A stretch of DNA of 33,991 nucleotides. Origin: a virus. The notes beneath the pieces are model-generated. The model worked only from the letters and a program-made list of their open reading frames with translations, had not been told where the DNA came from and did no database searches. Every line of letters begins with the position of its first letter. Positions within the stretch are counted from its first letter, which is position 1. The stretch spans positions 1-33,991 of the IMG/VR virus record IMGVR_UViG_3300032311_000767; one strand, given 5' to 3'. The position numbers and the translations under genes are program-made. Shown piece after piece: positions 5,252-33,762 of the stretch.

Positions 5252-5283
5252 TTTGGTAATATAAACAATATTTACTATATTCA
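5252..5283 (+). promoter_or_regulatory. Bacteroidota-type promoter upstream of the clamp gene
   Basis: TTTG at 5252-5255 and TATATTCA at 5276-5283 are separated by 20 nt, the same spacing as the other promoters in this window. The first G after TTTG is also shared. The -7 box ends only 5 nt before the clamp ATG at 5289, so a transcript starting at the usual distance would have almost no leader. Confidence 0.6.
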
Positions 5284-12910: not shown

Positions 12911-12924
12911 AATAAAAAAATTAT

Positions 12925-14235: not shown

Positions 14236-14776
14236 ACAATTTAATGAAGAAAAACTCATTGAAATATTATTTCATGAAGATGTAAAAATACTAAAAAATA
14301 AAGAATTACAAGAATATTATTCTTTAGCTAATACCTTACTCACTGAATTTTTAAATCCTGAATTAAGTTATAATTATGAAAAAATTGTAAGAGATAGTGG
14401 GGAATTAATGTTTAAAATAAAATATGAAAATGATCCTTATTTTATTATAACATTAAAGAAAGGTGGAATAAATGAAAATCATTATTGGATTTTAGATTTT
14501 TATTTTCCTGAGAAAGAAGATGGATTTGCTAAACAAGAAGGATTAAAAGGTGAAAATTATTTAGACACTGTTTCTAAAATATTTAAAGATGAAATATTAC
14601 CTTTTATAGAAAAAAATCAATATCCTATATTATATTTTAAAGCATATTCTAATGATAGTTATGGAAATTTAAGGATGAAGGTTTTCACTAAAATAGTAGA
14701 TAAATTTATAAATAAAAACACATTTGATGTAGAAAAAAGATCAAATGAATTTGTAATAACTAAAAAAATAAATTAA
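14228..14776 (+). CDS. Protein of unknown function in glycan island
   Basis: A 182-residue protein with no motif I recognise. It is alpha/beta: a helical N-terminus (KLIEILFHEDVKILKNKELQEYYSLANTLLTEFL), a central beta section (ELMFKIKYENDPYFIITLKKGG..HYWILDFYFP) and a C-terminal segment, YPILYFKAYSNDSYGNLRMKVFTKIVDKF, that loosely resembles acetyltransferase-like folds in phages. No signal peptide or membrane helix. The overlap with the upstream glycosyltransferase gene implies coupled translation. Confidence 0.7.
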   Translation: MDKQFNEEKLIEILFHEDVKILKNKELQEYYSLANTLLTEFLNPELSYNYEKIVRDSGELMFKIKYENDPYFIITLKKGGINENHYWILDFYFPEKEDGFAKQEGLKGENYLDTVSKIFKDEILPFIEKNQYPILYFKAYSNDSYGNLRMKVFTKIVDKFINKNTFDVEKRSNEFVITKKIN

Positions 14777-14782
14777 AATAAA

Positions 14783-15262
14783 ATGGATAATTTAGTAATA
14801 TGTAAAAGATGTGGCTCAGACGCATGTATGGAAACTGAACCTTATCAAAATGTAAAATCATACCACTGTATGGGGTGTGGTTTTACTACAAACATCTTAA
14901 TGAAAGAAGGTGAAGCATTTTTAGAAGAACAAAAAGGAATTTTACCTGAATTGTATAAAGACTTAATGTTCACAGATGATGAAGGAAAAATTTGGATGCC
15001 TTCATCGGTAAATTCACCAGAACAAGGAATGATATTTGCTAATGGTACAGGAGCGGATTTGTGGAAATGGTCAGCTGTAAAGGCAGTACCAGTATTAGAA
15101 GAAGAAAAAGAAAAATACCCAATAAAATCAAAACCAGGAGAATATTATAAATTCCGAATGGATATGGATACAATACAACATTTCGAAGAAGGTGATTATA
15201 TGGATGCATTAAGTCATATAGGTATCCTCCCTCAAGAAGAAAGTTTGGAAGACCAAAAATAA
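14783..15262 (+). CDS. Zinc-ribbon protein of unknown function
   Basis: The 159-residue protein starts with a zinc ribbon: CKRCGSDAC at 7-15 and CMGCGF at 29-34, that is CxxC..CxxC. The rest is acidic and unassigned (DEGKIWMPSSVNSPEQGMIFANG, then WKWSAVKAVPV). Proteins of this layout are frequent in T4-like phages and have been left unnamed. Its last codons contain the -33 box of the promoter for the next gene. Confidence 0.7.
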   Translation: MDNLVICKRCGSDACMETEPYQNVKSYHCMGCGFTTNILMKEGEAFLEEQKGILPELYKDLMFTDDEGKIWMPSSVNSPEQGMIFANGTGADLWKWSAVKAVPVLEEEKEKYPIKSKPGEYYKFRMDMDTIQHFEEGDYMDALSHIGILPQEESLEDQK

Positions 15263-15275
15263 GGTATTATATTTG
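15244..15275 (+). promoter_or_regulatory. Promoter with perfect TTTG / TAnnTTTG boxes, overlapping a gene end
   Basis: TTTG at 15244-15247 lies in the last codons of the zinc-ribbon gene, and TATATTTG at 15268-15275 is an exact Bacteroidota -7 box. The spacing is 20 nt. The -7 box is 15 bases before the ATG at 15290. The spacer (ggaagaccaaaaataagg) closely resembles that of the promoter at 33572. Confidence 0.65.
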
Positions 15276-15289
15276 GGATAAATAATAAT

Positions 15290-15547
15290 ATGATAGAAAG
15301 ACACCAATACATTGAAATGATTAAAACGGGTAATTTTGGTATGAATATATTTTATGAATACTACTCCGAGTTTAATAAAAATGAGTTATTTAAATTTTCA
15401 ATTAATGAATTTAATATGTTATTTAATAATTATATTAATATCATTGGAGTTAATGGTGCCATTAGTACAATTCGAAATTATTATGATAATAAATTCAATA
15501 TTATCACTTTGTCAGATAAAGAAGGAAAATTAATAAATGTTTTATAA
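15290..15547 (+). CDS. Small protein of unknown function
   Basis: An 85-residue protein rich in Asn, Ile, Tyr and Phe, predicted largely helical (RHQYIEMIKTGNFGMNIFYEYY, then FSINEFNMLFNNYINIIG). No recognisable domain. It has its own promoter and lies 2 bases before a GT-A glycosyltransferase, so both are probably transcribed from 15244. Confidence 0.65.
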   Translation: MIERHQYIEMIKTGNFGMNIFYEYYSEFNKNELFKFSINEFNMLFNNYINIIGVNGAISTIRNYYDNKFNIITLSDKEGKLINVL

Positions 15548-15549
15548 AT

Positions 15550-16179
15550 ATGAAAATAAGTTACGGAATAACAGTTAAAGATGAAATAGTAGAAATTCAA
15601 CATTTGTTAACTTTTCTTTTAAAGAATAAAAGACAGCAAGATGAAATCGTTATATTATTTGATAGTATGAATGGTTCTTCATCAGTTGAAGATTATTTAC
15701 GAGCAAACTCAATAAATGATGATTGTGGGTTTAAATGGTATCCATATCCTTTCAATGGGCATTTTGCTGATTTAAAAAATTATTTAAGCAGTTGGTGTAC
15801 TGGTGATTATATATTCCAAATAGATGCTGATGAAACTCCAGATGAGGAACTTATGAAACAATTACCTGATGTTTTAGAAAATAACTCAAACATTGAAGTA
15901 TTTTTAGTACCTCGTATTAATACAGTAAAAGGTCTAACTCAAGAACATATTCAAAAATGGGGTTGGAATGTAAATGAAAACCAATGGGTTAATTGGCCTG
16001 ACTATCAATGGAGAATTTACAAAAATACTTCTGAAATTAAATGGATAAATAAAGTGCATGAACGATTAGATGGATTCAAAACGTACACTGCGTTGCCAGA
16101 TGATAAGACATTCACTTTATTTCATCCTAAAACAATTGAACGACAAGAAAAACAAAATAGTTATTATAACAAATTATAA
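15550..16179 (+). CDS. GT-A fold glycosyltransferase (family 2-like)
   Basis: The 209-residue protein begins MKISYGITVKDEIVEIQHLLTFLL, the N-terminal strand and helix of GT2 enzymes, with an acidic residue after strand 2 (VILFDSMNG) and the metal-binding DxD in YIFQIDADETPDEEL (DAD at 92-94). The later RINTVKG and WRIYKN..IKWINKVHERLDG segments match a subgroup of short phage and bacterial GT2 proteins that ends with VHE. It should transfer a sugar from a nucleotide donor with Mn2+ or Mg2+. Confidence 0.85.
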   Translation: MKISYGITVKDEIVEIQHLLTFLLKNKRQQDEIVILFDSMNGSSSVEDYLRANSINDDCGFKWYPYPFNGHFADLKNYLSSWCTGDYIFQIDADETPDEELMKQLPDVLENNSNIEVFLVPRINTVKGLTQEHIQKWGWNVNENQWVNWPDYQWRIYKNTSEIKWINKVHERLDGFKTYTALPDDKTFTLFHPKTIERQEKQNSYYNKL

Positions 16180-16189
16180 ACCCCACTAA

Positions 16190-17188
16190 ATGACTCCCCA
16201 AAAAATTAATATACAACTACCTAAAAGTATAAATCCTGCGAATGATTATTGTACTTTAACTAAAAATACATTTATAACTCATGTTGATCCACAAAATATT
16301 AATGGGATTGGTACAGGTTGGTTAAATATCAGTTATGAAAATAAAAAATATAATGAACTCATAAATGAAAAAGTATTTTTATTATATGATGAAGCCGGTT
16401 TAAATTATATTCATTTCTTTTTTAATTTCTTTGGTAAATGTCTTTATTTTGATGAACTTAGAAAAACTATACCTAATCTTAAATTAGCGATACCATCAGA
16501 TTTTTATAATGAAACAGGTAATAGTACTTTTATCAAACAATGGTTAGATTTGTATTATCAAGATAATATACCTGATATTATAATTTTAAATAAAAACATT
16601 ACATATTGTATTGAAAGTTTATATACACCTCAAACTTTATATGGCTTTCCAATGGCTATTGGTGATGATTATATTATAGATAAAATACTAGAAACAGTAG
16701 ATAAAGTTCCTACAATTCCAGTAACTAAGAATGGATGTTATATTTCAAGACAAGATACTATTAAACGTGGATGGTATCATTCAAGAGAATTAGAAAATGA
16801 ACTTGAATTGATAGATAAAATTAAATCTGAACTCAATTATGATATTATTGAGTTAATGGATTATGATATGATAGGTAAAATACAAATATTCAAATCATAT
16901 AAAAATATCATTCAACAAAGTAGTGCATCAAATGTTAATATATTATTTTCAAATAAAAATAATACTAACATTATTATTACACACCCCAAAATGGAAGACT
17001 GGTTAGGATATAAATGCAATCAGTTTTCAAATAGATCTAAAACAAATTTGATTTCTTTAAATGGAGGTGGTATATTAACAGCAGAACAAAAAGAAGATCA
17101 AGCTGATGGTAATAATTTAGCATGGAAATTAGGAGATATAGACTCTATAATTGAAGTTTTAAAACAGATTGATAAAGGAGAAATATAA
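16190..17188 (+). CDS. GT61-like glycosyltransferase
   Basis: The 332-residue protein resembles the GT61/DUF563 group in its second half. It has CYISRQDTIKRGWYHSRELENELELI (family pattern isR..a..R...NE.el), then a segment of the type MDYDMIGKIQIFKSYKNIIQQSSASNVNILF (pattern eQi.lf..a..ivg..GaalaN.lF), with the usual His-Gly-Ala replaced by SSASN. The N-terminal part is unassigned. The missing HGA signature lowers confidence and could mean altered substrate or a related unnamed family. Confidence 0.6.
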   Translation: MTPQKINIQLPKSINPANDYCTLTKNTFITHVDPQNINGIGTGWLNISYENKKYNELINEKVFLLYDEAGLNYIHFFFNFFGKCLYFDELRKTIPNLKLAIPSDFYNETGNSTFIKQWLDLYYQDNIPDIIILNKNITYCIESLYTPQTLYGFPMAIGDDYIIDKILETVDKVPTIPVTKNGCYISRQDTIKRGWYHSRELENELELIDKIKSELNYDIIELMDYDMIGKIQIFKSYKNIIQQSSASNVNILFSNKNNTNIIITHPKMEDWLGYKCNQFSNRSKTNLISLNGGGILTAEQKEDQADGNNLAWKLGDIDSIIEVLKQIDKGEI

Positions 17189-17192
17189 GATA

Positions 17193-17224
17193 TTTGGATA
17201 TCATAAATACCTTTATTATATTAA
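17193..17224 (+). promoter_or_regulatory. Promoter of the sugar-synthesis operon
   Basis: TTTG at 17193-17196 and TATATTAA at 17217-17224 are 20 nt apart; the -7 box differs from the window's TATATTTA at one position. The -7 box starts 28 bases before the ATG at 17245, the same distance as for the promoters at 28852, 30068 and 30436. It fixes the start of the next gene at 17245 and not at an upstream TTG (17194), which lies inside the -33 box. Confidence 0.55.
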
Positions 17225-17244
17225 AATTAATTAAAAATAATTAC

Positions 17245-18555
17245 ATGGATAACATTTTAAGTTTAGTACAAGAGTATATTACAAAAAAAGATAGTGAAAA
17301 GAAATGGGTAGCGGGAAAGGATTTAGTTAAATATGCTGGACCTTATTTTGACGGTCAAGAAGCACAAGCTGTTGTTAAAACCATGCTTGATGGTTGGTTA
17401 GTTTTAGGAAAAGAAGGAGCAAGATTTGAAAAACATTTCCCTAAAAAATTAGGACATAAAACTGGAGTTATTGTTAATAGTGGTTCAAGTGCTAATTTAT
17501 TAATGATGTTAGCACTAACATCTAAAAGAGGATTAAATCTACCTAAAGGCACAAAAGTAATCACCCCAATAGCTGGATTCCCAGCTACGCTTAGTCCAGC
17601 TATACAAGTAGGTTTTACACCTATATTTGTAGATATTGAATTAGAATCTCTTAATCTTGATTTAGACCAAGTAGAACAAGCATGTATTGATCACCCCGAT
17701 ACAAAAATAATTACATTCGCCCACGTATTAGGTAATCCACCTAACATGGATAGATTAATGGAAATTATAAATAAATATGATTTAATTTTATTAGAAGACT
17801 GTTGCGATGCTTTAGGAACAACTTATGATGGTAAACCATTAGGATCATTTGGTAAAATGGCTTCATGCTCATTCTACCCAGCACATCATATAACAATGGG
17901 TGAAGGAGGATTTGTAGCATGTAGTGATCCATCAACAGAAAAAATATTAAGAAGTTTTAGAGACTGGGGTAGAGGATGTTATTGTCAAGGTAAAGCAAAT
18001 GCTTTAGAATGTGGTTCATGTGGTATTAGATTTAGTAACTGGTTACCAAGTTTACCTGATGAAATATTTGATCACAAATACACCTATGAAGAAATTGGTT
18101 ATAATTTAAAACCAACTGAATTGCAAGCCGCTATGGGTAATATTCAATTAGGTAAATTAGAAGAAATTGGAATATTAAGAAGAAGAAATCATAAAGCTAT
18201 TGTTGATATCTTTAAAAAATATGAGGATAAATTTATACTACCTAAAGCCACAGATAAATCAGACCCAGATTGGTTTGCAGTCGCATTAACAATTAAAGAT
18301 GGAGTAGATTTTACAAGAGCTGAATTTTGTCAGTACTTAGAGAAAAATAAAATTCAAACAAGACCTTATTTCGCTGGTAATATTATGCTACAACCAGGAT
18401 ATTCTCACTTAATAGATTCGAAAGAAGTAATAGAGAAATTTCCAGTATCAAGAAAAGTAACAACTGATACATTTTTCTTAGGATGTTCACCTGTAATCAC
18501 TTTAGAACAAATTGAATATATTAAAATAATTGTAGATAAATTTTTTAACAAATAA
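17245..18555 (+). CDS. PLP-dependent 3-dehydrase of DegT family, E1/DdhC (RfbH)-like, with [2Fe-2S] site
   Basis: The 436-residue protein belongs to the DegT/DnrJ/EryC1/StrS fold, but the PLP-lysine position is His: CSFYPAHHITMGEGG, where H214 aligns with the usual Lys. This is the signature of CDP-6-deoxy-glucoseen 3-dehydrase E1 (DdhC/RfbH/AscC), which removes the 3-hydroxyl without transamination. The E1 iron-sulfur cysteines also appear: C187-X57-C245-X1-C247, then C256 after 8 residues and C259 nearby; the known motif is C-X57-C-X1-C-X7-C. The stretch FDHKYTYEEIGYNLKPTELQAA is also typical of E1. It would form the 3,6-dideoxy-4-ketohexose precursor. The reductase partner (E3/DdhD) is not in this window. 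Start chosen at 17245 from the promoter. Confidence 0.88.
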   Translation: MDNILSLVQEYITKKDSEKKWVAGKDLVKYAGPYFDGQEAQAVVKTMLDGWLVLGKEGARFEKHFPKKLGHKTGVIVNSGSSANLLMMLALTSKRGLNLPKGTKVITPIAGFPATLSPAIQVGFTPIFVDIELESLNLDLDQVEQACIDHPDTKIITFAHVLGNPPNMDRLMEIINKYDLILLEDCCDALGTTYDGKPLGSFGKMASCSFYPAHHITMGEGGFVACSDPSTEKILRSFRDWGRGCYCQGKANALECGSCGIRFSNWLPSLPDEIFDHKYTYEEIGYNLKPTELQAAMGNIQLGKLEEIGILRRRNHKAIVDIFKKYEDKFILPKATDKSDPDWFAVALTIKDGVDFTRAEFCQYLEKNKIQTRPYFAGNIMLQPGYSHLIDSKEVIEKFPVSRKVTTDTFFLGCSPVITLEQIEYIKIIVDKFFNK

Positions 18556-18558
18556 CAT

Positions 18559-19509
18559 ATGAAAGTAGTATATATAACAGGTTGTTTAGGTTTCATTGGT
18601 TCCTATGTTACTCGAACTTGTCTTCAAAAAGGATGGTATGTTAAAGGTGTAGATAAAATAACATACGCTGCTAATAAAGATTTATTAGGTGAATTTAATC
18701 AATATAAAAATTTTTCATTTGTACATTGTGATATTAATGAATTAACATTTTTATATGACTGTGATTATATAATTAACACAGCCGCTGAAACACATGTTGG
18801 TAATTCAATATCTGATAGTAGTGAATTTATACATTCAAATATACAAGGAGTACATAATCTACTTGAATTGATTAAAAATCATAGAGGTGAAAATGTCAAA
18901 AAACCAATTCTTCTTCATTTTAGTACAGACGAAGTATATGGGGATATTGAAGAAGGAGCTCACATTGAAACAGATTTATTAAAACCATCTAACCCATACT
19001 CAGCAACAAAAGCTGCAGCCGATATGTTAGTAACAGCTTGGGGGAGAACTCATAAAGTACCTTATGTTATTGTTCGACCAACTAATAACTACGGGATGGG
19101 ACAATATGTTGAAAAATTAATTCCTAAAACATGTAAATATCTTAAATTAGGAAAAAAAATACCACTACACAATAATGGTACACCTATTAGAAATTGGTTA
19201 CATGCTCAAGACACAGCAGATGCTGTTATAACCATCATTGAATCTGGTGTTGAGAATGAAATTTATAACATTTGTGGAAATTTTGAGCAAAATAATTTGG
19301 ATACCGTAAAAAAATTACTTATATTGTGTGAAATAGATTTAGAAGATATAGATAAATATATTGATTGGTCATGTAATAGACAAGGACAAGATGTTAGATA
19401 TGCTTTAGATGATTCTAAATTAAGAGAATTAGGTTGGATTCCAAAAATGAAATTTGATGAGGAATTACCTAGTATTGTTAAATATTATAAAAATAAATTT
19501 ATATGGTAA
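18559..19509 (+). CDS. NAD-dependent sugar-nucleotide 4,6-dehydratase (RmlB-like SDR)
   Basis: The 316-residue extended SDR has the NAD motif TGCLGFIGS (7-15), the catalytic HFSTDEVYGD (about 119-128, TDE as in dTDP-glucose 4,6-dehydratase) and YSATKAAAD (YxxxK at about 147). Further support comes from RPTNNYGMGQYVEKLIP and GTPIRNWLHAQDTADAV, the usual RmlB substrate loops. The TDE triad argues for a dTDP- or similar donor over CDP-glucose 4,6-dehydratase, which usually has TDK. It is about 35 residues shorter than typical RmlB. It lies 3 bases after the dehydrase gene and overlaps the HAD gene by 7 bases. Confidence 0.88.
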   Translation: MKVVYITGCLGFIGSYVTRTCLQKGWYVKGVDKITYAANKDLLGEFNQYKNFSFVHCDINELTFLYDCDYIINTAAETHVGNSISDSSEFIHSNIQGVHNLLELIKNHRGENVKKPILLHFSTDEVYGDIEEGAHIETDLLKPSNPYSATKAAADMLVTAWGRTHKVPYVIVRPTNNYGMGQYVEKLIPKTCKYLKLGKKIPLHNNGTPIRNWLHAQDTADAVITIIESGVENEIYNICGNFEQNNLDTVKKLLILCEIDLEDIDKYIDWSCNRQGQDVRYALDDSKLRELGWIPKMKFDEELPSIVKYYKNKFIW

Positions 19510-25644: not shown

Positions 25645-26678
25645 TGATATCACTAGTTATACCAACTACAAGTTCTAATAAAAACTATACAAATAATCTT
25701 ATTAAAAATATAAGAGAAATTTATCCAAATGAAAATGAAGTAGAAATAATTCTTGAAGAAAATGATACTACTGCATTGGGGATTAATTTTAATAATGCTG
25801 TTGCAAAAGCGAATGGTAATAAAATAATTTTATTACACAATGATATGGTTATAAAACCTGGATTTATAGAAACAATGGAGAAACATATTTGTAAAAATAG
25901 AATTACAAGTTATACAAGAATAGAACCACCAATATATAATGACATATATCCTGGAAAGGTGATATTGGATTGTGGTAGAGATTTGGATAATTTTGATAAA
26001 GAAAAATTTTATAATTATAATTTGGAAACTTCTTTAATAGATGGTGGTTCTCAATTATTCTTTGGATGCTTGAAAGAAGATTATATTGGATTAGATGGTA
26101 ATACTTTTAAGATGTTTTGTGAAGATGATGATTTGCACTTAAGATATAAATTAGCAGGATTTGAACATAAAGTAAGTTCAGCTCATGTTTATCATTTTGT
26201 TAGTAAAACATCAAGAACTACAAAAGATTATCAGCAAATAGAATTAAATTCAAATCGTAATTTTATTCGCAAATGGGGTAATAGAAGTCCAAAGGTAAAA
26301 TATAATATTGCTTATGTAGTTAAAAAGTGTAACTCACAATTACTTGGAATATTAGAACCATGGTGTGATAGAATTTACATTGAAGATGACATGTATGTTT
26401 TAATAGATTTATATATAGAACAAGAACAACCAAACACTTCATCTAATTTAACTAAACGGGTATTACATATTAAACATAATTATCCTGAAGGAGAAAATGA
26501 TATCGTTGTTGAATTTGATGCTACTCAATTAACACAACAATCATTTCAACTATTACAACAACTCCCAGATATTATTAAAGAAAGTGGAGAGGTAGGAGTA
26601 TTTGAATTAGAAATATTTAAAATAAAAATTCAAAATATTTGGGAATACCAAAATGATTTAGTATATTTAGAAAAATAA
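25644..26678 (+). CDS. GT2 family glycosyltransferase with C-terminal extension
   Basis: The 344-residue protein begins MISLVIPTTSSNKNYTNNLIKNI, as in GT2 enzymes. It has IILEENDTTALGINFNNAVAKANGNKIILLHNDMVI (about 36-71), where HNDM stands in the DxD position, and FCEDDDLHLRYKLAGFEHK (about 155-173) with the ED catalytic-base motif. Residues beyond about 235 form an extra region of strands and helices (DRIYIEDDMYVLIDLYIEQEQ, then QLTQQSFQLLQQLPDI) of unknown role. It is the last enzyme of the glycan island. Confidence 0.85.
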   Translation: MISLVIPTTSSNKNYTNNLIKNIREIYPNENEVEIILEENDTTALGINFNNAVAKANGNKIILLHNDMVIKPGFIETMEKHICKNRITSYTRIEPPIYNDIYPGKVILDCGRDLDNFDKEKFYNYNLETSLIDGGSQLFFGCLKEDYIGLDGNTFKMFCEDDDLHLRYKLAGFEHKVSSAHVYHFVSKTSRTTKDYQQIELNSNRNFIRKWGNRSPKVKYNIAYVVKKCNSQLLGILEPWCDRIYIEDDMYVLIDLYIEQEQPNTSSNLTKRVLHIKHNYPEGENDIVVEFDATQLTQQSFQLLQQLPDIIKESGEVGVFELEIFKIKIQNIWEYQNDLVYLEK

Positions 26679-26683
26679 AAATT

Positions 26684-26866
26684 ATGAAAGAAATACTTAA
26701 AGAAACTATCGGATTTATTATATTTACAGGGTTTTGTATTTATGGAATTTATTTATTAGATAATAATACTGCTATCATCCACTCAGATAAACCATTAACC
26801 CCAACAATAGAATTAAAAATAAAAGATAATAAAGTAGATACAATATATGTTTACAGACTAAAATAA
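26684..26866 (+). CDS. Small single-pass membrane protein
   Basis: A 60-residue protein with one N-terminal transmembrane helix (about residues 8-25, TIGFIIFTGFCIYGIYLL) and a short polar C-terminal part, IELKIKDNKVDTIYVYRLK. It is not a cleavable signal as far as can be judged. Function unknown. Leader aaaaattATG, 5 bases after the GT2 gene. Confidence 0.65.
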   Translation: MKEILKETIGFIIFTGFCIYGIYLLDNNTAIIHSDKPLTPTIELKIKDNKVDTIYVYRLK

Positions 26867-28520: not shown

Positions 28521-28850
28521 ATGGCTCTAGAACTAAACGTAAATAATATTGAGGAATTTCAAACTATGATAGATAATAAGGATTTTAGGATCTCTGAGTC
28601 AATAATTAAAACTATATTGAATAATGTAAATACTAAGAAAAAACATGTTCATATAATTTCAATAAATGTTTTAGAAAATAATACTACATTGGACTTGACT
28701 TTAGAGAAGAAATTTTTTATTGAAACTTTAGAGGAAAATTTGAAATTTTTCATTGAACAAGAAAGATACGAAGATTGTCAGAATATAGTAAATGCAATTA
28801 ATCAATTAAAAAGTAATAATACTCCAACAAGTAAGAAAAAAACTAAATAA
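28521..28850 (+). CDS. Protein of unknown function
   Basis: A 109-residue protein, helical with a central strand (HVHIISINVLENNTTLDLTLEK) and a basic tail, PTSKKKTK. It directly follows a tiny gene with no gap and ends 1 base before the promoter of the ligase gene. Not recognised. Confidence 0.65.
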   Translation: MALELNVNNIEEFQTMIDNKDFRISESIIKTILNNVNTKKKHVHIISINVLENNTTLDLTLEKKFFIETLEENLKFFIEQERYEDCQNIVNAINQLKSNNTPTSKKKTK

Positions 28851-28851
28851 G

Positions 28852-28883
28852 TTTGGTTTATCTAAATATTATTCGTACATTTA
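28852..28883 (+). promoter_or_regulatory. Strong Bacteroidota-type promoter upstream of DNA ligase
   Basis: TTTG 28852-28855, 20-nt spacer, TACATTTA 28876-28883. The flanks match the promoter family of this region: G after TTTG, TCG before the -7 box, AAATAA after it. The ATG is 28 bases downstream of the -7 start. Confidence 0.8.
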
Positions 28884-28903
28884 GATAAATAAGAATAAAG
28901 GTT

Positions 28904-29959
28904 ATGAAATTATCGAAACTTTACTCAAGGTCCACTACTGGAAAGGTATGTACTTGGGAAATTGAAATTAATCAAAATAAATACAGAACAATTAGTGGAT
29001 TTGATGGAATGAAACTAACTACGTCTGAATGGACAACATGTGATGCTAAATCTTACTGTACCGCAGAAGAACAAGTACTTAAAGAAGCAACAGCTATACA
29101 CCGTAAGAAAATGGAGACGGGTTCATTTGAAGATATTAATCAAATTGATAATAAAGTATTCTTTGAACCAATGCTCGCTAAAGATTATACTAAAGAAAAA
29201 GTAAACTACCCTGTTTATTCTCAGCCTAAGTTAGATGGTATTCGTTGTATTGTTAGAGCAGATGGAATGTGGTCTCGTACTGGTAAGAAAATAATATCAG
29301 CACCTCATATATTTGAATCAATGAAACATTTATTTGAAGTTGATCCTAATTTAATTTTTGATGGGGAACTATATGCTGATAAATTTGCAAACGATTTTAA
29401 TGCCATTTGTTCATTAGTTAAGAAAACAAAACCAACAGAACATGACTTATTAGAATCAGCTAAAGCGATTCAATATCACATTTATGACTTACCTTCACAC
29501 AATGCTAATTTTTCAATTAGAATGGAGGAATTAAATAAAATAAATTTACCTGAATGTTGTGTTGTTGTATTAACTGATTTTGTTAAAACAGAATCTGAGT
29601 TAATGGAGTTATATGGAAAATATGTTAATGATGGTTATGAAGGTCAAATGGTTCGTTTAGATAATAAATATGAAAATAAACGATCTAAATATTTACTTAA
29701 ACATAAATCATTTGTTGATAAAGAATACACTATTTTAGGTGTTAAAGAAGGTGTAGGTAAATTAGAAGGAAAAGCAGGAGCATTAATATTTGATGGATTT
29801 GAAAGTTCAATAAACGGAAATCATCAATACTTGGAAGAAATATGGATGCGTAGAAATGAATTAATAGGTAAGGAAGCAACAGTTAAATACTTCAACCTAA
29901 CACCAGATGGACAACCTAGATTTCCGAAAGTTATAAACATTGATAGAGATGGACTGTAA
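28904..29959 (+). CDS. ATP-dependent DNA ligase
   Basis: The 351-residue ligase has adenylation motif I SQPKLDGIRC (K109 is the AMP-bound Lys), motif Ia WSRTGKKI, motif III LIFDGELYAD, motif IV DGYEGQMVR and motif V KYLLKHKSF, followed by an OB-type C-terminus (EYTILGVKEGVGKLEGKAGAL). The first 80 residues (SKLYSRSTTGKVCTWEIEINQNKYRTISGFDG) resemble a WGR-type nucleic-acid-binding domain, not usual in minimal phage ligases. It seals nicks during replication and repair. Driven by its own promoter at the start of the accessory array. Confidence 0.93.
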   Translation: MKLSKLYSRSTTGKVCTWEIEINQNKYRTISGFDGMKLTTSEWTTCDAKSYCTAEEQVLKEATAIHRKKMETGSFEDINQIDNKVFFEPMLAKDYTKEKVNYPVYSQPKLDGIRCIVRADGMWSRTGKKIISAPHIFESMKHLFEVDPNLIFDGELYADKFANDFNAICSLVKKTKPTEHDLLESAKAIQYHIYDLPSHNANFSIRMEELNKINLPECCVVVLTDFVKTESELMELYGKYVNDGYEGQMVRLDNKYENKRSKYLLKHKSFVDKEYTILGVKEGVGKLEGKAGALIFDGFESSINGNHQYLEEIWMRRNELIGKEATVKYFNLTPDGQPRFPKVINIDRDGL

Positions 29960-29975
29960 ATAAAAAATAAATAAT

Positions 29976-30067
29976 ATATGGATAGAGTAGCTTTAACAAG
30001 TATAATAGTATTAGTATTATATTTAATTTGTATTAATAGAGGTAATGATGAAGATTATCAAAAATAA
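29976..30067 (+). other. Possible tiny hydrophobic ORF between ligase and next promoter
   Basis: A short reading frame ending at TAA 30065-30067 encodes a hydrophobic stretch, VLVLYLICINRGNDEDYQK, and stops exactly where the next promoter begins, as neighbouring genes do. The only nearby start is an ATG at about 29976. I could not settle that the ATG and the hydrophobic frame are in the same phase, so this is flagged and not called as a gene. Confidence 0.3.
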
Positions 30068-30099
30068 TTTGGCTACCCTAAAATTAGATATTATATTTA
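30068..30099 (+). promoter_or_regulatory. Strong Bacteroidota-type promoter
   Basis: TTTG 30068-30071, 20-nt spacer starting gctaccctaaaat, TATATTTA 30092-30099. It fixes the start of the next gene at 30120 (28 bases after the -7 start), because an upstream ATG at 30045 would lie before the transcript starts. Confidence 0.8.
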
Positions 30100-30119
30100 T
30101 AAGAATAAAAATAAAAATT

Positions 30120-30245
30120 ATGAAAGATATGATTCAAACACTTAAATGGAAATGGAATTCAAATAAATTAGAATTCATTGGCTCAGTATTATCCATCACT
30201 ACCTTAGGATTACTTTATTATTTTATACTAAATATTTGTTATTAA
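30120..30245 (+). CDS. Very small membrane protein
   Basis: A 41-residue protein beginning MKDMIQTLKWKW with one hydrophobic helix (about residues 18-38, EFIGSVLSITTLGLLYYFIL). The frame is open further upstream to 30045, but the promoter at 30068-30099 makes 30120 the likely start. Leader ataaaaattATG is of the standard type. Unknown function. Confidence 0.6.
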   Translation: MKDMIQTLKWKWNSNKLEFIGSVLSITTLGLLYYFILNICY

Positions 30246-30248
30246 CAT

Positions 30249-30434
30249 ATGAACTATATTACTTTATCTAAAACAGAATTAAAACACATTATAAAAAAAG
30301 CATATATGAGTGGACAAAATAATAATATTCAACTTGCTAATAATATGAATGTGTCATATAATTTAGATGAATATGTTCAAAATGAAATAGAACAAATATT
30401 AAAACAACAACAAACAGATGAATGGTTAAAATAA
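30249..30434 (+). CDS. Small protein of unknown function
   Basis: A 61-residue, Asn- and Gln-rich helical protein: NYITLSKTELKHIIKKAYMSGQN, then NLDEYVQNEIEQILKQQQTDEWLK. It lies 3 bases after the preceding tiny gene and ends 1 base before the next promoter. Not recognised. Confidence 0.6.
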   Translation: MNYITLSKTELKHIIKKAYMSGQNNNIQLANNMNVSYNLDEYVQNEIEQILKQQQTDEWLK

Positions 30435-30435
30435 A

Positions 30436-30467
30436 TTTGGTTACCCAAAATTATTTACTTATATTTA
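30436..30467 (+). promoter_or_regulatory. Strong Bacteroidota-type promoter
   Basis: TTTG 30436-30439, 20-nt spacer starting gttacccaaaatt, TATATTTA 30460-30467. The ATG of the next gene is 28 bases after the -7 start. It probably also serves the HTH gene at 30685, ahead of a terminator. Confidence 0.8.
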
Positions 30468-30487
30468 CATAAATAAAATTAAAAAAC

Positions 30488-30664
30488 ATGAAAAAAGAAA
30501 CAATTTCAAATTTAATTAAAAAATGGATTGGATTATCACCAAAACGAGATATTCCATCTATCTTAGAACAAGATGTAAATTTCAAAACAATAGTACCTGA
30601 CCAATATTTTGATTTCAATGATTGGGCACAAAAAATGAAAGTCAGTTGTTATTGTCCTAAATAA
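30488..30664 (+). CDS. Small protein of unknown function
   Basis: A 58-residue protein (ATG 30488, TAA 30662-30664): MKKETISNLIKKWIGL, then a Pro/Asp-rich part, DIPSILEQDVNFKTIVPDQYF, and a Cys pair at the C-terminus, VSCYCPK. Correct distance from a strong promoter supports it as a gene. Not recognised. Confidence 0.65.
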   Translation: MKKETISNLIKKWIGLSPKRDIPSILEQDVNFKTIVPDQYFDFNDWAQKMKVSCYCPK

Positions 30665-30684
30665 AAAAATTAAACAGTTATATT

Positions 30685-30897
30685 ATGAACAAGTTAAATC
30701 GAACAGCTAAATTGTCTTTCTTTACAGCTCGTAAAAGACAAGGTGACGCAACCCGCATCGCTGAAAACACAGGGTATTCTTTATCTCACGTTACAAATGT
30801 AATGAATGGTACTCGTTCAGTACCACAAGTTATTGCTAATGAAATGTATAACATTAGTAGACGTCGTATGACTAATCGTGAACGTATTTTGGCTTAA
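30685..30897 (+). CDS. Small helix-turn-helix protein
   Basis: The 70-residue protein contains a compact XRE-like helix-turn-helix: DATRIAENTGYSLSHVTNVMNG (about 21-42), with the recognition helix in SLSHVTNVMNGTR. The C-terminus is basic (MYNISRRRMTNRER). It is likely a DNA-binding regulator. It is more GC-rich than its neighbours, closely followed by the one clear terminator in the window, and sits inside the promoter array, so it could act on those promoters. Confidence 0.75.
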   Translation: MNKLNRTAKLSFFTARKRQGDATRIAENTGYSLSHVTNVMNGTRSVPQVIANEMYNISRRRMTNRERILA

Positions 30898-30913
30898 AAG
30901 TTAATTAAGTATT

Positions 30914-30942
30914 TGAAGGAGCTTTTGCTCCTTCATTTATTT
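30914..30942 (+). terminator. Rho-independent-type terminator after the HTH gene
   Basis: A perfect stem of 9 bp (tgaaggagc / gctccttca, arms 30914-30922 and 30927-30935) with a TTTT loop is followed by a T-rich tract, tttattta. It lies 16 bases after the HTH stop codon. Confidence 0.85.
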
Positions 30943-30977
30943 AGTTATTAAATTAAAAACTATTAAATTAATAAAAA

Positions 30978-31298
30978 ATGAAATTATTTAAAGGCATATT
31001 AGAATCATTAGCAACATTGATTTACATTTTTATTATAACAATATTCATGTATATGGCATGGGCAGGTTGGTTTAAAATAATTCCTTCATCTCGATTAAAA
31101 GAAGATGACACTCCATTAATAGCAATGGTATTAAATTTTTTATATTTGCTATTTTTATTTATATTATCATTTGTTACTGAAGGTATATTACAAGAGAATA
31201 TCATGATGTTTATGATATATAACTGGTTTTATAATGCTATATTCATAGTCATAGGAATATTATTATATGTAATTCTTCCTGATAATAAATACAAGTAA
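30978..31298 (+). CDS. Three-helix membrane protein
   Basis: The 106-residue protein is mostly hydrophobic, with about three transmembrane helices: near residues 10-30 (LATLIYIFIITIFMYMAWAG), 48-70 (IAMVLNFLYLLFLFILSFV) and 80-101 (WFYNAIFIVIGILLYVILP). The loop between helices 1 and 2 is charged (SSRLKEDDTP). No enzyme motif. No promoter box is seen directly upstream, so its expression source is unclear. Confidence 0.7.
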   Translation: MKLFKGILESLATLIYIFIITIFMYMAWAGWFKIIPSSRLKEDDTPLIAMVLNFLYLLFLFILSFVTEGILQENIMMFMIYNWFYNAIFIVIGILLYVILPDNKYK

Positions 31299-31330
31299 GT
31301 TTGGTTACCCAAAATACTAGTCATATATTT
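31299..31330 (+). promoter_or_regulatory. Strong Bacteroidota-type promoter
   Basis: TTTG 31299-31302, 20-nt spacer starting gttacccaaaata, TATATTTA 31323-31330. It begins immediately after the stop codon of the membrane-protein gene. The next ATG is 30 bases after the -7 start. Confidence 0.8.
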
Positions 31331-31352
31331 AACTAAATAAAAAATAAATAAT

Positions 31353-31547
31353 ATGAACATGAGTTATTGCCGATTTGAAAACACATACAATGATTTGATT
31401 GATTGTATTGAAAACATGAGTAAAGAATCAAATAACGATAGAGATGAAAGATATCGTGAACGTTTACTTCTATTAATGAAAAACACAGTTGATTCAGGGG
31501 AAATAGATGAAATATTAGAAGAAATAGAGGATAATAGACATAAGTAA
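31353..31547 (+). CDS. Small acidic protein of unknown function
   Basis: A 64-residue helical, charged protein: MSYCRFENTYNDLIDCIENM, then DERYRERLLLLMKNTVDSGEIDEILEEIED. The N-terminal MSYCRFENT..DL.DC pattern is one I associate with unnamed phage proteins, but no function is known to me. Own promoter; the next promoter follows the stop at once. Confidence 0.65.
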   Translation: MNMSYCRFENTYNDLIDCIENMSKESNNDRDERYRERLLLLMKNTVDSGEIDEILEEIEDNRHK

Positions 31548-31548
31548 G

Positions 31549-31580
31549 TTTGGCTACCCAAGATATTAATCGTACATTCA
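31549..31580 (+). promoter_or_regulatory. Strong Bacteroidota-type promoter
   Basis: TTTG 31549-31552, 20-nt spacer starting gctacccaagata, TACATTCA 31573-31580 (one change from the regional TACATTTA). The next ATG is 30 bases after the -7 start. Confidence 0.75.
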
Positions 31581-31602
31581 CATAAATAAAAAATAATAAA
31601 AT

Positions 31603-31809
31603 ATGGTTAAAGAAAATCAATTACTTAAAGATTTCAAAGCGTACATCGCAACAACAGGTTTAAAAACTGTAAGAGTATGGGAAAATAAAATTGGATTATA
31701 TGCTCAGATTAGTGGATGGACCGATAAAAATAACCCATATTTCACTAAAGTAATGCAAGGTGGTACAGTTGTTAGTTTATCTTTTGATGATATTAAAGCA
31801 TTTAAATAA
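31603..31809 (+). CDS. Small protein of unknown function
   Basis: A 68-residue alpha/beta protein: helix LLKDFKAYIATTG, then strands TVRVWENKIGLYAQISGW, YFTKVMQGGTVVSLSF and a final DDIKAF. Probably a compact beta-sheet fold. Not recognised. Followed after 3 bases by a Cys-rich gene, so they form a small operon with the next one. Confidence 0.65.
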   Translation: MVKENQLLKDFKAYIATTGLKTVRVWENKIGLYAQISGWTDKNNPYFTKVMQGGTVVSLSFDDIKAFK

Positions 31810-31812
31810 AAT

Positions 31813-32001
31813 ATGAATAAACAGGAAAATAATAAATCAGAAATAATGGATGTAACAATGTGTAGAGGCAGAGATTGTCCATTAACAGAGAGTTGTTATA
31901 GATATACAGTAGATGTTAGTAAATATCAGTCGTATTTTACAGAATCACCATTTGAAAATGGTAGATGTGAAGTATATTTAGAAAATAGAAAATGTTTATG
32001 A
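31813..32001 (+). CDS. Small Cys-rich protein of unknown function
   Basis: A 62-residue protein with five cysteines (CRGRDCPLTESC, then GRCEVYLENRKC), spaced as in small metal-binding domains. The C..CPL..SC.RY pattern may hold a zinc or iron-sulfur site. Its TGA stop overlaps the next ATG as ATGA, so translation is coupled. Function unknown. Confidence 0.65.
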   Translation: MNKQENNKSEIMDVTMCRGRDCPLTESCYRYTVDVSKYQSYFTESPFENGRCEVYLENRKCL

Positions 32002-32204
32002 AACTAATTAACGTAGAAACATATGATGCAAAAGTATATACGTTTAGAGACGAAGGTGGAAAATTATATCATGTTATAAAACAAGATAGTTTCCTAAATA
32101 ATATATACCCGGAATATCGTTTTATAGGTCCTAATCAAAGTGAAATGATGGAGGAAAAAGTAATAAACGAGATTAAAAATATAATGAAAGGTTGGGAAAA
32201 ATAA
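31998..32204 (+). CDS. Small protein of unknown function
   Basis: A 68-residue protein beginning MKLINVETYDAKVYTFRDEGGKLYHVIKQD, probably a beta-rich barrel-like N-terminus with a helical end (MMEEKVINEIKNIMKGW). Start chosen at 31998 and not the in-frame ATG at 31992 because 31998 gives the ATGA overlap with the upstream stop. Not recognised. Confidence 0.6.
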   Translation: MKLINVETYDAKVYTFRDEGGKLYHVIKQDSFLNNIYPEYRFIGPNQSEMMEEKVINEIKNIMKGWEK

Positions 32205-32263
32205 ATTCAAAAATTCGTTCATAAACACACCAATAACAATATACGTATATACAAAACAACATA

Positions 32264-32295
32264 TTTGACTCCATTAAGGAGCCATCGTATATTTA
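32264..32295 (+). promoter_or_regulatory. Strong Bacteroidota-type promoter with dyad in spacer
   Basis: TTTG 32264-32267, 20-nt spacer, TATATTTA 32288-32295. This is the one promoter of the array whose spacer lacks the usual GGyTAyC start; it has an inverted repeat, CTCC-attaa-GGAG, possibly an operator. The ATG at 32313 is 25 bases after the -7 start, ruling out an upstream TTG (32265) inside the -33 box. Confidence 0.75.
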
Positions 32296-32320
32296 CATCA
32301 AATAAAGAAATAATGGAAAA
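32285..32320 (+). repeat. 36-bp direct repeat, copy 1 (promoter -7 box, leader and start codon)
   Basis: Bases 32285-32320 are identical to 32725-32760. The repeat covers the TCG before the -7 box, the -7 box, the whole leader, the ATG and the first codons; similarity continues about 11 bases further with two mismatches, so both proteins begin MEKQxTA. Confidence 0.85.
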
Positions 32321-32489
32321 ACAAAAAACAGCAGTTGAATGGTTGGTAAAGAAATTAAATACACCCGGATTTACTCAAGTAGTAACGGATGAAGAATTCC
32401 AACAAGCATTAGCAATGGAAATGGAACAAAGGGTAAAATCATATAAAAACGGATATATAAACGGACAAATGGATGCTTTTACTAATTAA
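32313..32489 (+). CDS. Small protein of unknown function
   Basis: A 58-residue helical protein, MEKQKTAVEWLVKKLNTPGF, then FQQALAMEMEQRVKSYKNGYINGQMDAF. Start at 32313 set by the promoter. The sequence AVEWLVKKL..A..ME..Q....Y..GY..G..DAF resembles a pattern seen in unnamed short proteins of Bacteroidota phages; no function known to me. Its N-terminus matches that of the gene at 32753. Confidence 0.65.
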   Translation: MEKQKTAVEWLVKKLNTPGFTQVVTDEEFQQALAMEMEQRVKSYKNGYINGQMDAFTN

Positions 32490-32490
32490 A

Positions 32491-32522
32491 TTTGGCTCAT
32501 CTAAAATTCAGTCGTACATTTA
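32491..32522 (+). promoter_or_regulatory. Strong Bacteroidota-type promoter
   Basis: TTTG 32491-32494, 20-nt spacer starting gctcatctaaaat, TACATTTA 32515-32522, preceded by AGTCG. The next ATG is 24 bases after the -7 start. Confidence 0.8.
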
Positions 32523-32538
32523 CAACAAATAAAGAAAT

Positions 32539-32745
32539 ATGAAAATATTAATACAAAACGAGTTTGACGAAACAAGAATAATTAAATGGATGAATAATCA
32601 ATTTGATAGTAATAAATGGAATATAATTAATCGAGAACAAGGCATTGAGGTTAAACTTGAAATTACCATTGACAAACTATCTAAAACAGAACAAGAAAAT
32701 TTATTTGGCTATCTAAAATCTCAGTCGTATATTTACATCAAATAA
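32539..32745 (+). CDS. Small protein of unknown function
   Basis: A 68-residue protein, MKILIQNEFDETRIIKWMNNQF, then WNIINREQGIEVKLEITIDKL. Its last 14 codons are at the same time the promoter of the next gene (32704-32735), so the C-terminal LFGYLKSQSYIYIK may be dictated by promoter sequence. Not recognised. Confidence 0.6.
   Translation: MKILIQNEFDETRIIKWMNNQFDSNKWNIINREQGIEVKLEITIDKLSKTEQENLFGYLKSQSYIYIK
32704..32735 (+). promoter_or_regulatory. Strong Bacteroidota-type promoter embedded in coding sequence
   Basis: TTTG 32704-32707, 20-nt spacer starting gctatctaaaat, TATATTTA 32728-32735, preceded by AGTCG. It lies wholly inside the 3' end of the gene at 32539. The next ATG is 25 bases after the -7 start. 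Confidence 0.8.
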
Positions 32746-32760
32746 AGAAATAATGGAAAA
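32725..32760 (+). repeat. 36-bp direct repeat, copy 2 (promoter -7 box, leader and start codon)
   Basis: Identical to 32285-32320. The copies are 440 bp apart in the same orientation and could recombine, deleting one gene pair. Confidence 0.85.
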
Positions 32761-32989
32761 GCAACAAACAGCGATGCAAGAACTATTAGAATTTTGCGAA
32801 TATAGACAAACCAAAGCAACTGATGGTTGTAAAGCTGCGTGGAATATGATATTAGCAAAAATAAAAGATGATGGACTTATTGAAATAGAACAGGAACAAA
32901 TAATGAATGCATGGGTAAAAGGAGTAGTTAGTGAAGGTGATATGACGGCAAGACAATATTACAAAGAAACATATAAACAAGAAGAATAA
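32753..32989 (+). CDS. Small protein of unknown function
   Basis: A 78-residue acidic helical protein: MEKQQTAMQELLEFCEYRQTKATDGCKAAWNMILAKI, then EQIMNAWVKGVVSEGDMTARQYYKETY. The start and leader are duplicated from the gene at 32313 or vice versa. It is followed by an A-rich gap and another promoter. Not recognised. Confidence 0.65.
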   Translation: MEKQQTAMQELLEFCEYRQTKATDGCKAAWNMILAKIKDDGLIEIEQEQIMNAWVKGVVSEGDMTARQYYKETYKQEE

Positions 32990-33004
32990 GAATCCAGTAA
33001 ATAA

Positions 33005-33036
33005 TTTGGTTACCGTAATAATCAGTCGTACATTTA
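33005..33036 (+). promoter_or_regulatory. Strong Bacteroidota-type promoter
   Basis: TTTG 33005-33008, 20-nt spacer starting gttaccgtaataat, TACATTTA 33029-33036, preceded by AGTCG. The next ATG is 35 bases after the -7 start, the longest leader of the array. Confidence 0.8.
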
Positions 33037-33063
33037 CATCAAATAAAAATAAATAAAAAACAT

Positions 33064-33354
33064 ATGAGTAGATTAATAAGTGAATTGCCGTACGAGATAA
33101 AATTAAAAGCAATGAAATACAGTAATGCTCCGGGTGAAGATGATTTGGCTGCCTCGTTTATATGGAATACAACAGATGAAGGTCATGATATATGGGAAGG
33201 AATATATAATAAAGGTGACTATCAATCGTTTTATAGTTTTCATGATATGAAATATCCAAAACAAATAACACCAAAACAATGGTGTGAGGAAAAAGGATAT
33301 AATGAATATCATGTAATGATAATAGAACAGTATTTGAAAGATACGGGTAAATAG
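33064..33354 (+). CDS. Small protein of unknown function
   Basis: A 96-residue protein beginning MSRLISELPYEIKLKAMKYSN and continuing DDLAASFIWNTTDEGHDIWEGIYNKGDYQSFYSFH, then a helical C-terminus. It is rich in aromatic and acidic residues and ends in TAG, unlike the TAA of most neighbours. The AxxxxxTxEGHDxWExIxxxxDY type of motif appears in unnamed phage proteins as far as I recall. Own promoter. Confidence 0.65.
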   Translation: MSRLISELPYEIKLKAMKYSNAPGEDDLAASFIWNTTDEGHDIWEGIYNKGDYQSFYSFHDMKYPKQITPKQWCEEKGYNEYHVMIIEQYLKDTGK

Positions 33355-33571
33355 TACGTTAAGGGTACTGGGATATAAAAATGAGATATGTGACAAATAT
33401 ACATAAACGGAAGTGTGACACGGGAATGGATGAGGTAGGATAGTATATGACATAGATGTGGTGTGTGGGATATGTTGAGAATTTGAAATCCGTACCTCCT
33501 TTCATCGAGGGAACCAACCATTTCATCGACAAAGTATATACTACTTTCACACACCCCATAAACAAGATCTA
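33355..33571 (+). ncRNA. Gene-poor, more GC-rich stretch; possible structured RNA
   Basis: These about 217 bases have no convincing gene. The only fair-sized + frame is 33456-33584 (42 codons), with no A-rich leader. GC is near 38 percent, higher than the array around it, and the first half is G/T-rich. GGTGTGTG (33460-33467) can pair with CACACACC (33548-33555), extended by G-U and A-U pairs to about 11 bp, enclosing a loop that contains TTTCATCGA twice and a small CCTC/GAGG hairpin. Also AGTAC/GTACT at 33353-33369. It could be transcribed from the promoter at 33005. RNA function is speculative. Confidence 0.3.
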
Positions 33572-33603
33572 TTTGGAGAACTAAAAATAAGGTCTTACAT
33601 TTA
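33572..33603 (+). promoter_or_regulatory. Strong Bacteroidota-type promoter
   Basis: TTTG 33572-33575, 20-nt spacer starting gagaactaaaaataagg, TACATTTA 33596-33603. The spacer is notably like that of the promoter at 15244. The next ATG is 23 bases after the -7 start. Confidence 0.75.
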
Positions 33604-33618
33604 CAAAAAATAAAGGTT

Positions 33619-33729
33619 ATGAATAGAAGAAATAATTTAGATGAAATTTTATATGGTATAGTTTGTGTAATTGCTTCATGGATTTTTGGAGGTTTTTTAG
33701 TAATGATTATTTGTAAATTATTAAGTTAA
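33619..33729 (+). CDS. Very small membrane protein
   Basis: A 36-residue protein, MNRRNNLDEILYGIVCVIAS, with one hydrophobic helix (about residues 11-33) containing an FGGF motif and a positively charged N-terminus, so probably N-in. Leader aaataaaggttATG is of the same form as for the polymerase and ligase genes. Unknown function; small single-helix proteins of this kind often act on the host envelope or immunity. Confidence 0.6.
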   Translation: MNRRNNLDEILYGIVCVIASWIFGGFLVMIICKLLS

Positions 33730-33730
33730 A

Positions 33731-33762
33731 TTAGGTTTCCCTAAAAAATAGTCGTACATTTA
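33731..33762 (+). promoter_or_regulatory. Bacteroidota-type promoter with TTAG in the -33 box
   Basis: TTAGG at 33731 replaces TTTGG, followed by a 20-nt spacer (gtttccctaaaaaatagtcg) and TACATTTA 33755-33762. The rest of the family signature (AGTCG before the -7 box) is intact. The -33 change may weaken it. Confidence 0.65.

Follow-up and report, generated by a model that had tools for sequence, protein, structure and literature searches.

Why should one phage carry eleven promoter-like sites that share an invariant spacer length and a set of bases beyond the two boxes of a host sigma-A promoter? The sites lie on the + strand between positions 28852 and 33762 of the virus record IMGVR_UViG_3300032311_000767, a stretch of 33,991 bases that is referred to here in its entirety as the window. 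Our best explanation, to which we assign a probability of about 0.68, is that they are early promoters read by the host, that a hairpin is also encoded in them, by the -33 box together with the spacer's first half, and that the elements behave as exchangeable units.

Rigid spacing and phage specificity of the sites

Promoters of the Bacteroidota sigma-A factor have TTTG near -33 and TAnnTTTG near -7 (PMC7366714, PMC6847099). Scanned as TTTG-N20-TAnnTTTA, the window contains all eleven sites at the coordinates given in the initial annotation, which was also right about the invariant spacer (at every site, 20 nt separate TTTG from the TA of the -7 box) and about the two exceptions. TTTG is present in 10/11 sites, with TTAG at 33731, and TAnnTTTA in 10/11, with TACATTCA at 31549; the -7 box ends in A where the host has G. 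Apart from 33731, the -33 box reads TTTGG, except at 32264 (TTTGA). The extended pattern TTTGG..TAnnTTT[AG] has 11 + strand matches at spacer 20 (overlapping the array's eleven sites, without being an identical set) and 0 at the other spacers from 12 to 29. At spacer 20 it is found neither in the shuffled window nor on the window's minus strand.

The same spacing is found among relatives. The window encodes a T4-type ligase, a polymerase matching phrog_262, a clamp-loader-like protein, GroEL and GroES; no phage record matched the window in a DNA similarity search, and 80 viral contigs with a related ligase were retrieved for comparison. The T4 capsid family Gp23 is present in 8 of the 12 relative records tested. 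In the relatives, the extended pattern occurs 189 times at spacer 20, compared with 2–14 times at other lengths and ~4 times in a shuffle. The whole records G010, G011, G014 and G008 have 33, 27, 34 and 13 matches at spacer 20, respectively (one strand), and 0–3 at other spacers.

The extended motif is not common in host genomes, as the initial annotation had anticipated for a phage promoter class: seven Bacteroidota genomes (31.7 Mb) contain 78 forward and 73 reverse matches (151), compared with 100 and 99 (199) for a reversed control pattern. A host origin of the motif was rejected: exact matches numbered 0 in genome contigs, whereas viral contigs had 70 stretches with it. Relaxing the pattern yielded 63 scattered matches, several of them outside the Bacteroidota, much as by chance. 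Within the phage genomes, 1 promoter was observed between the tail sheath and gp23 capsid genes where 14.1 were expected (p about 1e-5), and because the class is nearly absent from this span, it is probably early. The T4 late motif TATAAATA showed no excess over its reversed control. The class is absent from the 50 kb examined of the huge phage LR756511, whose ligase is 47% identical.

The initial annotation had offered two readings of the conserved spacer: a second DNA-binding factor, or an extended phage promoter class that was probably early. The first was given up, as the spacer bases, which had been set beforehand as its test, are not conserved across the relative lineages. The second stands, with host genomes at or below control level, the same rigid spacer in T4-like relatives and a depleted structural region. 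The other conserved bases would seem to require no second factor. A-rich DNA precedes the -33 box. Immediately ahead of the -7 box, the T-(C/G)-(G/T) falls at -15 to -13 (taking the -7 box as -12 to -5), which is the register of the TGn extended -10 element in E. coli (PMC2988021), and the T at its first position is present in 142/168 relative sites. The ACA..AAATAA tail lies between the start site expected by the host rule and the ATG, i.e., in a short 5' untranslated region (UTR), and fits the UTR rules of Flavobacterium, where the start context is A-rich and free of Shine-Dalgarno sequences (PMC6847099).

At 7/11 array sites, the box begins 0–1 nt past the TAA stop of the preceding gene, and in the non-redundant set of 161 assigned sites, stop codons fall most often at offset -4 (25 sites). 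Start codons are mostly 15–30 nt past the -7 box, compatible with Bacteroidota transcription starts ~5–7 nt after that box. Based on sequence comparison, the sites are best described as variants of the host sigma-A promoter that are specific to phages and rigid in spacing, with promoter activity itself a prediction.

Complementarity of the spacer to the -33 box

The spacer's first half can pair with the -33 box. Allowing G-T pairs, 5/5 positions pair at 12/14 window sites, with 1.7 sites expected and at most 6 in 1000 shuffles. Comparable excesses are found in G014 (19/20, 2.0 expected) and G010 (16/22, 2.1 expected), with 12/21 sites pairing in G011; in L087–L156, 40/65 sites pair vs. 7.1 expected, a count that leaves out sites that matched the search pattern. 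The excess remained after removal of similar promoter copies. After TTTG, the relatives keep complementarity to the -33 box and not sequence, and both the loop length and the arms vary. At 33731, the variant -33 box TTAGG is accompanied by the matching arm CCTAA, and the hairpin at 32264 (ACTCC / GGAGC) is the most G+C-rich of the array.

Shared spacer bases might simply reflect common descent if one promoter had recently been duplicated to form the array. Copying does occur: 32264 and 32704 are 79% alike over 82 nt, gene start included, and there are near-identical promoter copies within relatives. However, it leaves the constraint unexplained, since the spacing is exactly 20 in distant phages despite diverged spacer sequences, and the arms at 33731 and 32264 differ yet still pair; we give a copying artefact almost no credence. 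The proteins encoded at 32313–32489 and 32753–32989 start alike (MEKQKTA and MEKQQTA) and then diverge, with promoter and leader sequence common to both.

In the window, G010 and G011, folding energy along the promoters is lowest across the -33 box and the adjoining half of the spacer. The minimum is less sharp in G014, and G008 as a whole has little of it. When right halves were exchanged between promoters of one genome, which preserves the column make-up, hairpins weakened in the window (p 0.01–0.04), G010 (p ≤0.004), G011 (p 0.01–0.03) and G014 (p 0.01–0.05), with no clear weakening in G008 (p about 0.09).

Flavobacterium phage immuto provides an independent case. It is the best cultivated match to Gp23 of G008 (53% identical), and its gene suite is similar to that of the window (GroES/GroEL, FolE, glycosyltransferases, an aminotransferase and a sugar epimerase). 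TTTGG sites are almost lacking in immuto, and its small-gene array (60–77 kb) contains GTTG-N20-TA[TC][AC]TTTA, with 29 matches at spacer 20, 0–2 at other spacers and 1 on the opposite strand. A folding-energy minimum again covers the -33 box and first half-spacer. In the swap test the observed energy was -5.99 kcal/mol, compared with -3.4 to -3.9 kcal/mol after exchange, and 0/1000 permutations reached the observed value (p<0.001). At 7 sites, hairpins of -12.5 to -17.3 kcal/mol overlap the box, mostly followed by U-rich DNA; strong hairpins belong to the promoters at 64498, 68714 and 69566, and those at 68714 and 69566 are terminator-like and nested in the promoter. A GTTG box with the same spacing and a covarying hairpin indicates that the -33 box can change while the spacing and the nested hairpin persist.

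The repeat could also be an operator. TTTGG-N4/5-CCAAA would then be a palindromic phage-repressor site, perhaps for the helix-turn-helix (HTH)-like protein encoded in the array at 30685–30897, which would shut early promoters by covering the -33 box. The repeat does overlap that box at 12/14 window sites, and the protein has weak HTH matches (HTH_31, E 0.038, below cut-off; phrog_6223 repressor, E 0.056). Against this, the distance between the arms varies by at least 1 nt and, in relatives, their sequence differs from promoter to promoter of the same genome, which a dimer site would hardly allow, and the U-rich tracts and UUCG loops point to RNA. An operator is therefore improbable in our view.

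Candidate terminators and proposed exchangeable units

In the reading that we prefer, the sites would be early promoters of a T4-like Bacteroidota phage, read by host RNA polymerase with sigma-A and no phage factor, through the combination of A-rich upstream DNA, TTTGG, exactly 20 nt, T-(C/G)-(G/T) in the TGn register and TAYATTTA. A transcript arriving from the preceding gene would fold the hairpin encoded by the -33 box and first half-spacer, which in many relatives would form a complete intrinsic terminator with a U-rich tract in the spacer ahead of the -7 box. One stretch of ~40 bp could thus both end one transcription unit and begin the next, and would insulate small early genes as exchangeable promoter-gene units.

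Hairpins with the form of canonical terminators are nested in promoters in L109 (GAGCCGTCCATTTGGGCGGCTTTTTTTATTTTTG ahead of TATATTTA) and likewise in L093, L099 and L011, and G008 has terminator-like hairpins nested in its promoters at 130324, 131571 and 132792 (e.g., GGGGATTTGGGTAACTAGATCCCCTTTTG ahead of TATGTTTA). The -33 box can occupy the 5' arm, the loop or the 3' arm of the hairpins of relatives. Among relatives, hairpins of -5 kcal/mol or lower are found at 52% of sites with the box 21–60 nt past a stop codon vs. 19% at 20 nt or less; 32264, with the most G+C-rich hairpin, is the window site that lies 21–60 nt behind a stop codon. Divergent upstream genes, tried as a negative control, were discarded (nearly all were spurious open reading frames, ORFs), and an Rfam search gave no match.

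Several observations weigh against a hairpin function, particularly in the window. Hairpins there are mostly short and weak (about 0 to -6 kcal/mol at 37 C), and are not more stable on the sense than on the opposite strand. Termination is doubtful because 7/11 sites abut a stop codon, where the ribosome would cover the hairpin. The sole + strand match of a terminator scan is at 30914–30935, strong and separate from any promoter, with none among the window promoters. The distant relatives L036–L086 have no folding-energy excess. Finally, mutated -33 boxes in TTTGG-type phages pair with their own arm in 21 cases and with the unmutated arm in 33; the other arm is mostly uncompensated, so that part of the CYAAA conservation lies at the sequence level. 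The count of G-T vs. A-C mismatches was uninformative as a strand test, since A-C is scarcely possible when one arm is fixed as TTTGG.

A rival reading is a plain extended promoter, in which all conserved bases, including the C-Y-A-A-A midway through the spacer, would serve contacts or bending for host RNA polymerase, complementarity to TTTGG in the window lineage would be incidental and the terminators of relatives would be separate features that overlap by coincidence. Such a promoter is favored by retention of the CYAAA arm in TTTGG lineages despite a mutated -33 box, by the window arms, in which the pairs adjoining the five are not formed, and by the extra consensus that T4 early promoters carry beyond the sigma-70 boxes (PMC2988021). 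It is harder to reconcile with the variable loop length and the arms that differ between lineages, with the strongly covarying arms beside the different -33 box of immuto (p<0.001), and with a swap test that was significant in 4/5 TTTGG records, the window among them. On balance we consider it unlikely. For a hairpin-encoding promoter, the pairing excess and covariation are seen directly in the compared genomes; that terminator and promoter are fused can be held with fair confidence for the group and with less for the window's own sites. More tentatively, and at somewhat under even odds, the terminator of one gene would lie nested in the next promoter in T4-like Bacteroidota phages, with -33 box bases doubling as hairpin arm or loop and the spacer as U-rich tract. 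The spacer would then owe its rigidity partly to this double use, and small early genes would be exchanged at the element as a minimal, insulated docking site.

Comparison of relatives bears on exchange: 14/107 insertions end at a promoter vs. 4.4 expected, and one clean promoter-cassette insertion distinguishes L136 from L141. The window cassette 30420–30898 (promoter 30436, a tiny gene and the HTH-like gene) occurs at a different locus in L222/L223, directly behind the DNA polymerase gene and ahead of the gene that follows it, the position at which the window has its own promoter at 5252.

Table 1. Promoter sites of the class and the free-standing terminator in the window.
Feature	Coordinates	Strand	Sequence	Context	Arms
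Promoter 1	28852..28883	+	TTTGGTTTATCTAAATATTATTCG TACATTTA	1 nt past TAA of ORF 28521–28850	TTTGG / CTAAA
Promoter 2	30068..30099	+	TTTGGCTACCCTAAAATTAGATAT TATATTTA	immediately after TAA	TTTGG / CTAAA
Promoter 3	30436..30467	+	TTTGGTTACCCAAAATTATTTACT TATATTTA	1 nt past TAA of ORF 30249–30434	TTTGG / CCAAA
Promoter 4	31300..31331	+	TTTGGTTACCCAAAATACTAGTCA TATATTTA	1 nt past TAA of ORF 30978–31298	TTTGG / CCAAA
Promoter 5	31549..31580	+	TTTGGCTACCCAAGATATTAATCG TACATTCA	1 nt past TAA of ORF 31353–31547	TTTGG / CCAAG
Promoter 6	32264..32295	+	TTTGACTCCATTAAGGAGCCATCG TATATTTA	~59 nt past preceding gene	ACTCC / GGAGC
Promoter 7	32491..32522	+	TTTGGCTCATCTAAAATTCAGTCG TACATTTA	1 nt past TAA of ORF 32313–32489	TTTGG / CTAAA
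Promoter 8	32704..32735	+	TTTGGCTATCTAAAATCTCAGTCG TATATTTA	within 3' end of ORF 32539–32745	TTTGG / CTAAA
Promoter 9	33005..33036	+	TTTGGTTACCGTAATAATCAGTCG TACATTTA		without 5/5 pairing
Promoter 10	33572..33603	+	TTTGGAGAACTAAAAATAAGGTCT TACATTTA	~215 nt without convincing gene upstream	TTTGG / CTAAA
Promoter 11	33731..33762	+	TTAGGTTTCCCTAAAAAATAGTCG TACATTTA	1 nt past TAA of ORF 33619–33729	TTAGG / CCTAA
Further class site	5252..5283	+	-7 box TATATTCA	after DNA polymerase gene (ends 5246), before ORF 5289–6035	
Further class site	15244..15275	+	TTTGG-AAGA-CCAAA	before ORF 15290–15547	TTTGG / CCAAA
Further class site	26638..26669	+	TTTGG-GAATA-CCAAA	before ORF 26684–26866	TTTGG / CCAAA
Canonical intrinsic terminator	30914..30935	+	TGAAGGAGC-TTTT-GCTCCTTCA + TTTATTT	free-standing, behind HTH-like gene	

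The initial annotation had every site followed by one to three tiny genes, which is not the case at 28852, a promoter that is the same in the relative L038 (98% identical) and that lies upstream of the gene for a 351-amino-acid DNA ligase (28904–29959). Promoter 30436 precedes ORF 30488–30664 and the HTH-like ORF, and promoter 31549 precedes three small ORFs (31603–32204). The three sites beyond the array are each directly upstream of a gene; pattern matches at 819 and 7966, both within coding sequence, are probably due to chance. The gene at 30978, next after the free-standing terminator, has no promoter of the class. The final 13 codons of ORF 32539–32745 (FGYLKSQSYIYIK) are encoded by promoter 32704, as if the promoter had been placed into the gene end. 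Ahead of promoter 33572, the ~215 nt at 33355–33571 contain no convincing ORF amid a tightly packed region and have no Rfam match.

Elsewhere in the window, a GTP cyclohydrolase I-like gene (893–1528) scores below the curated cut-off, and FolE of immuto is among the genes annotated for 7-deazaguanine DNA modification; by this parallel, the DNA of the window phage may be modified. A cluster of glycosyltransferase, aminotransferase and dTDP-glucose dehydratase-like genes (11477–19509) is similar in kind to that of immuto. ORF 270–905 matches a group I intron endonuclease (TIGR01453), and window bases 185–885 have no aligned counterpart in the ~95% identical relative L141; the region around this ORF may be a mobile insertion.

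Comparison with known systems

The sites would define a phage-specific promoter class for the Bacteroidota, a major phylum for which descriptions of phage transcription are scarce. As a compact unit of terminator and promoter, the element could also become a part for Bacteroidota genetics. The proposal can be tested directly in a cultivated pair of the same architecture, immuto and its host Flavobacterium sp. LMO8.

The phage sites have the same two boxes as the Bacteroidota sigma-A promoter. They differ in having a constant spacer, a longer -33 box (TTTGG) and an A at the end of the -7 box. In Bacteroides thetaiotaomicron promoters the spacer length is variable (PMC7366714), and in F. johnsoniae the -33 box is much less evident (PMC6847099). 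T4 early promoters are near-consensus host-type promoters before early genes, with additional consensus regions, A-rich upstream DNA and a TGn element (PMC2988021). The sites described here resemble them in combining near-consensus host boxes with an extended consensus in a T4-like phage (Gp23 in relatives), and differ in having TTTGG and TAYATTTA, a spacer fixed at 20 and a hairpin overlap; early timing, known for T4, is predicted here.

The closest known elements appear to be the promoter-early stem-loop (PeSL) cassettes of T4-like coliphages (Arbiol et al. 2010 and Comeau et al. 2014, as cited in PMC4503421), a comparison that draws on these citations and on a scan of RB49 (record L265, first 50 kb). 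PeSL cassettes join a terminator to a strong early promoter, stand among small dispensable genes and are linked to gene shuffling. The elements described here would share this make-up; their terminator-like hairpins are clear in relatives and immuto and weak in the window. In RB49, clear terminators before promoters 47732, 45322 and 34481 end 13–16 nt upstream of the -35 box, and the energy profile has little excess at -10 to 0, with excess also at +10. The terminator thus stands ahead of the -35 box, an order taken as a PeSL trait from the RB49 scan alone, whereas here the hairpin overlaps the -33 box and spacer, with the U-rich tract before the -7 box, and the boxes are those of Bacteroidota sigma-A. 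The difference in order is only one of degree, because the hairpins of RB49 promoters 43031 and 18532 lie in or across the spacer, without a U tract. If our reading is correct, coliphages are not alone in packing exchangeable early genes in the PeSL manner, and the geometry here is tighter: the elements would work like PeSL cassettes with their parts ordered differently, and exchange at the sites is only modestly supported.

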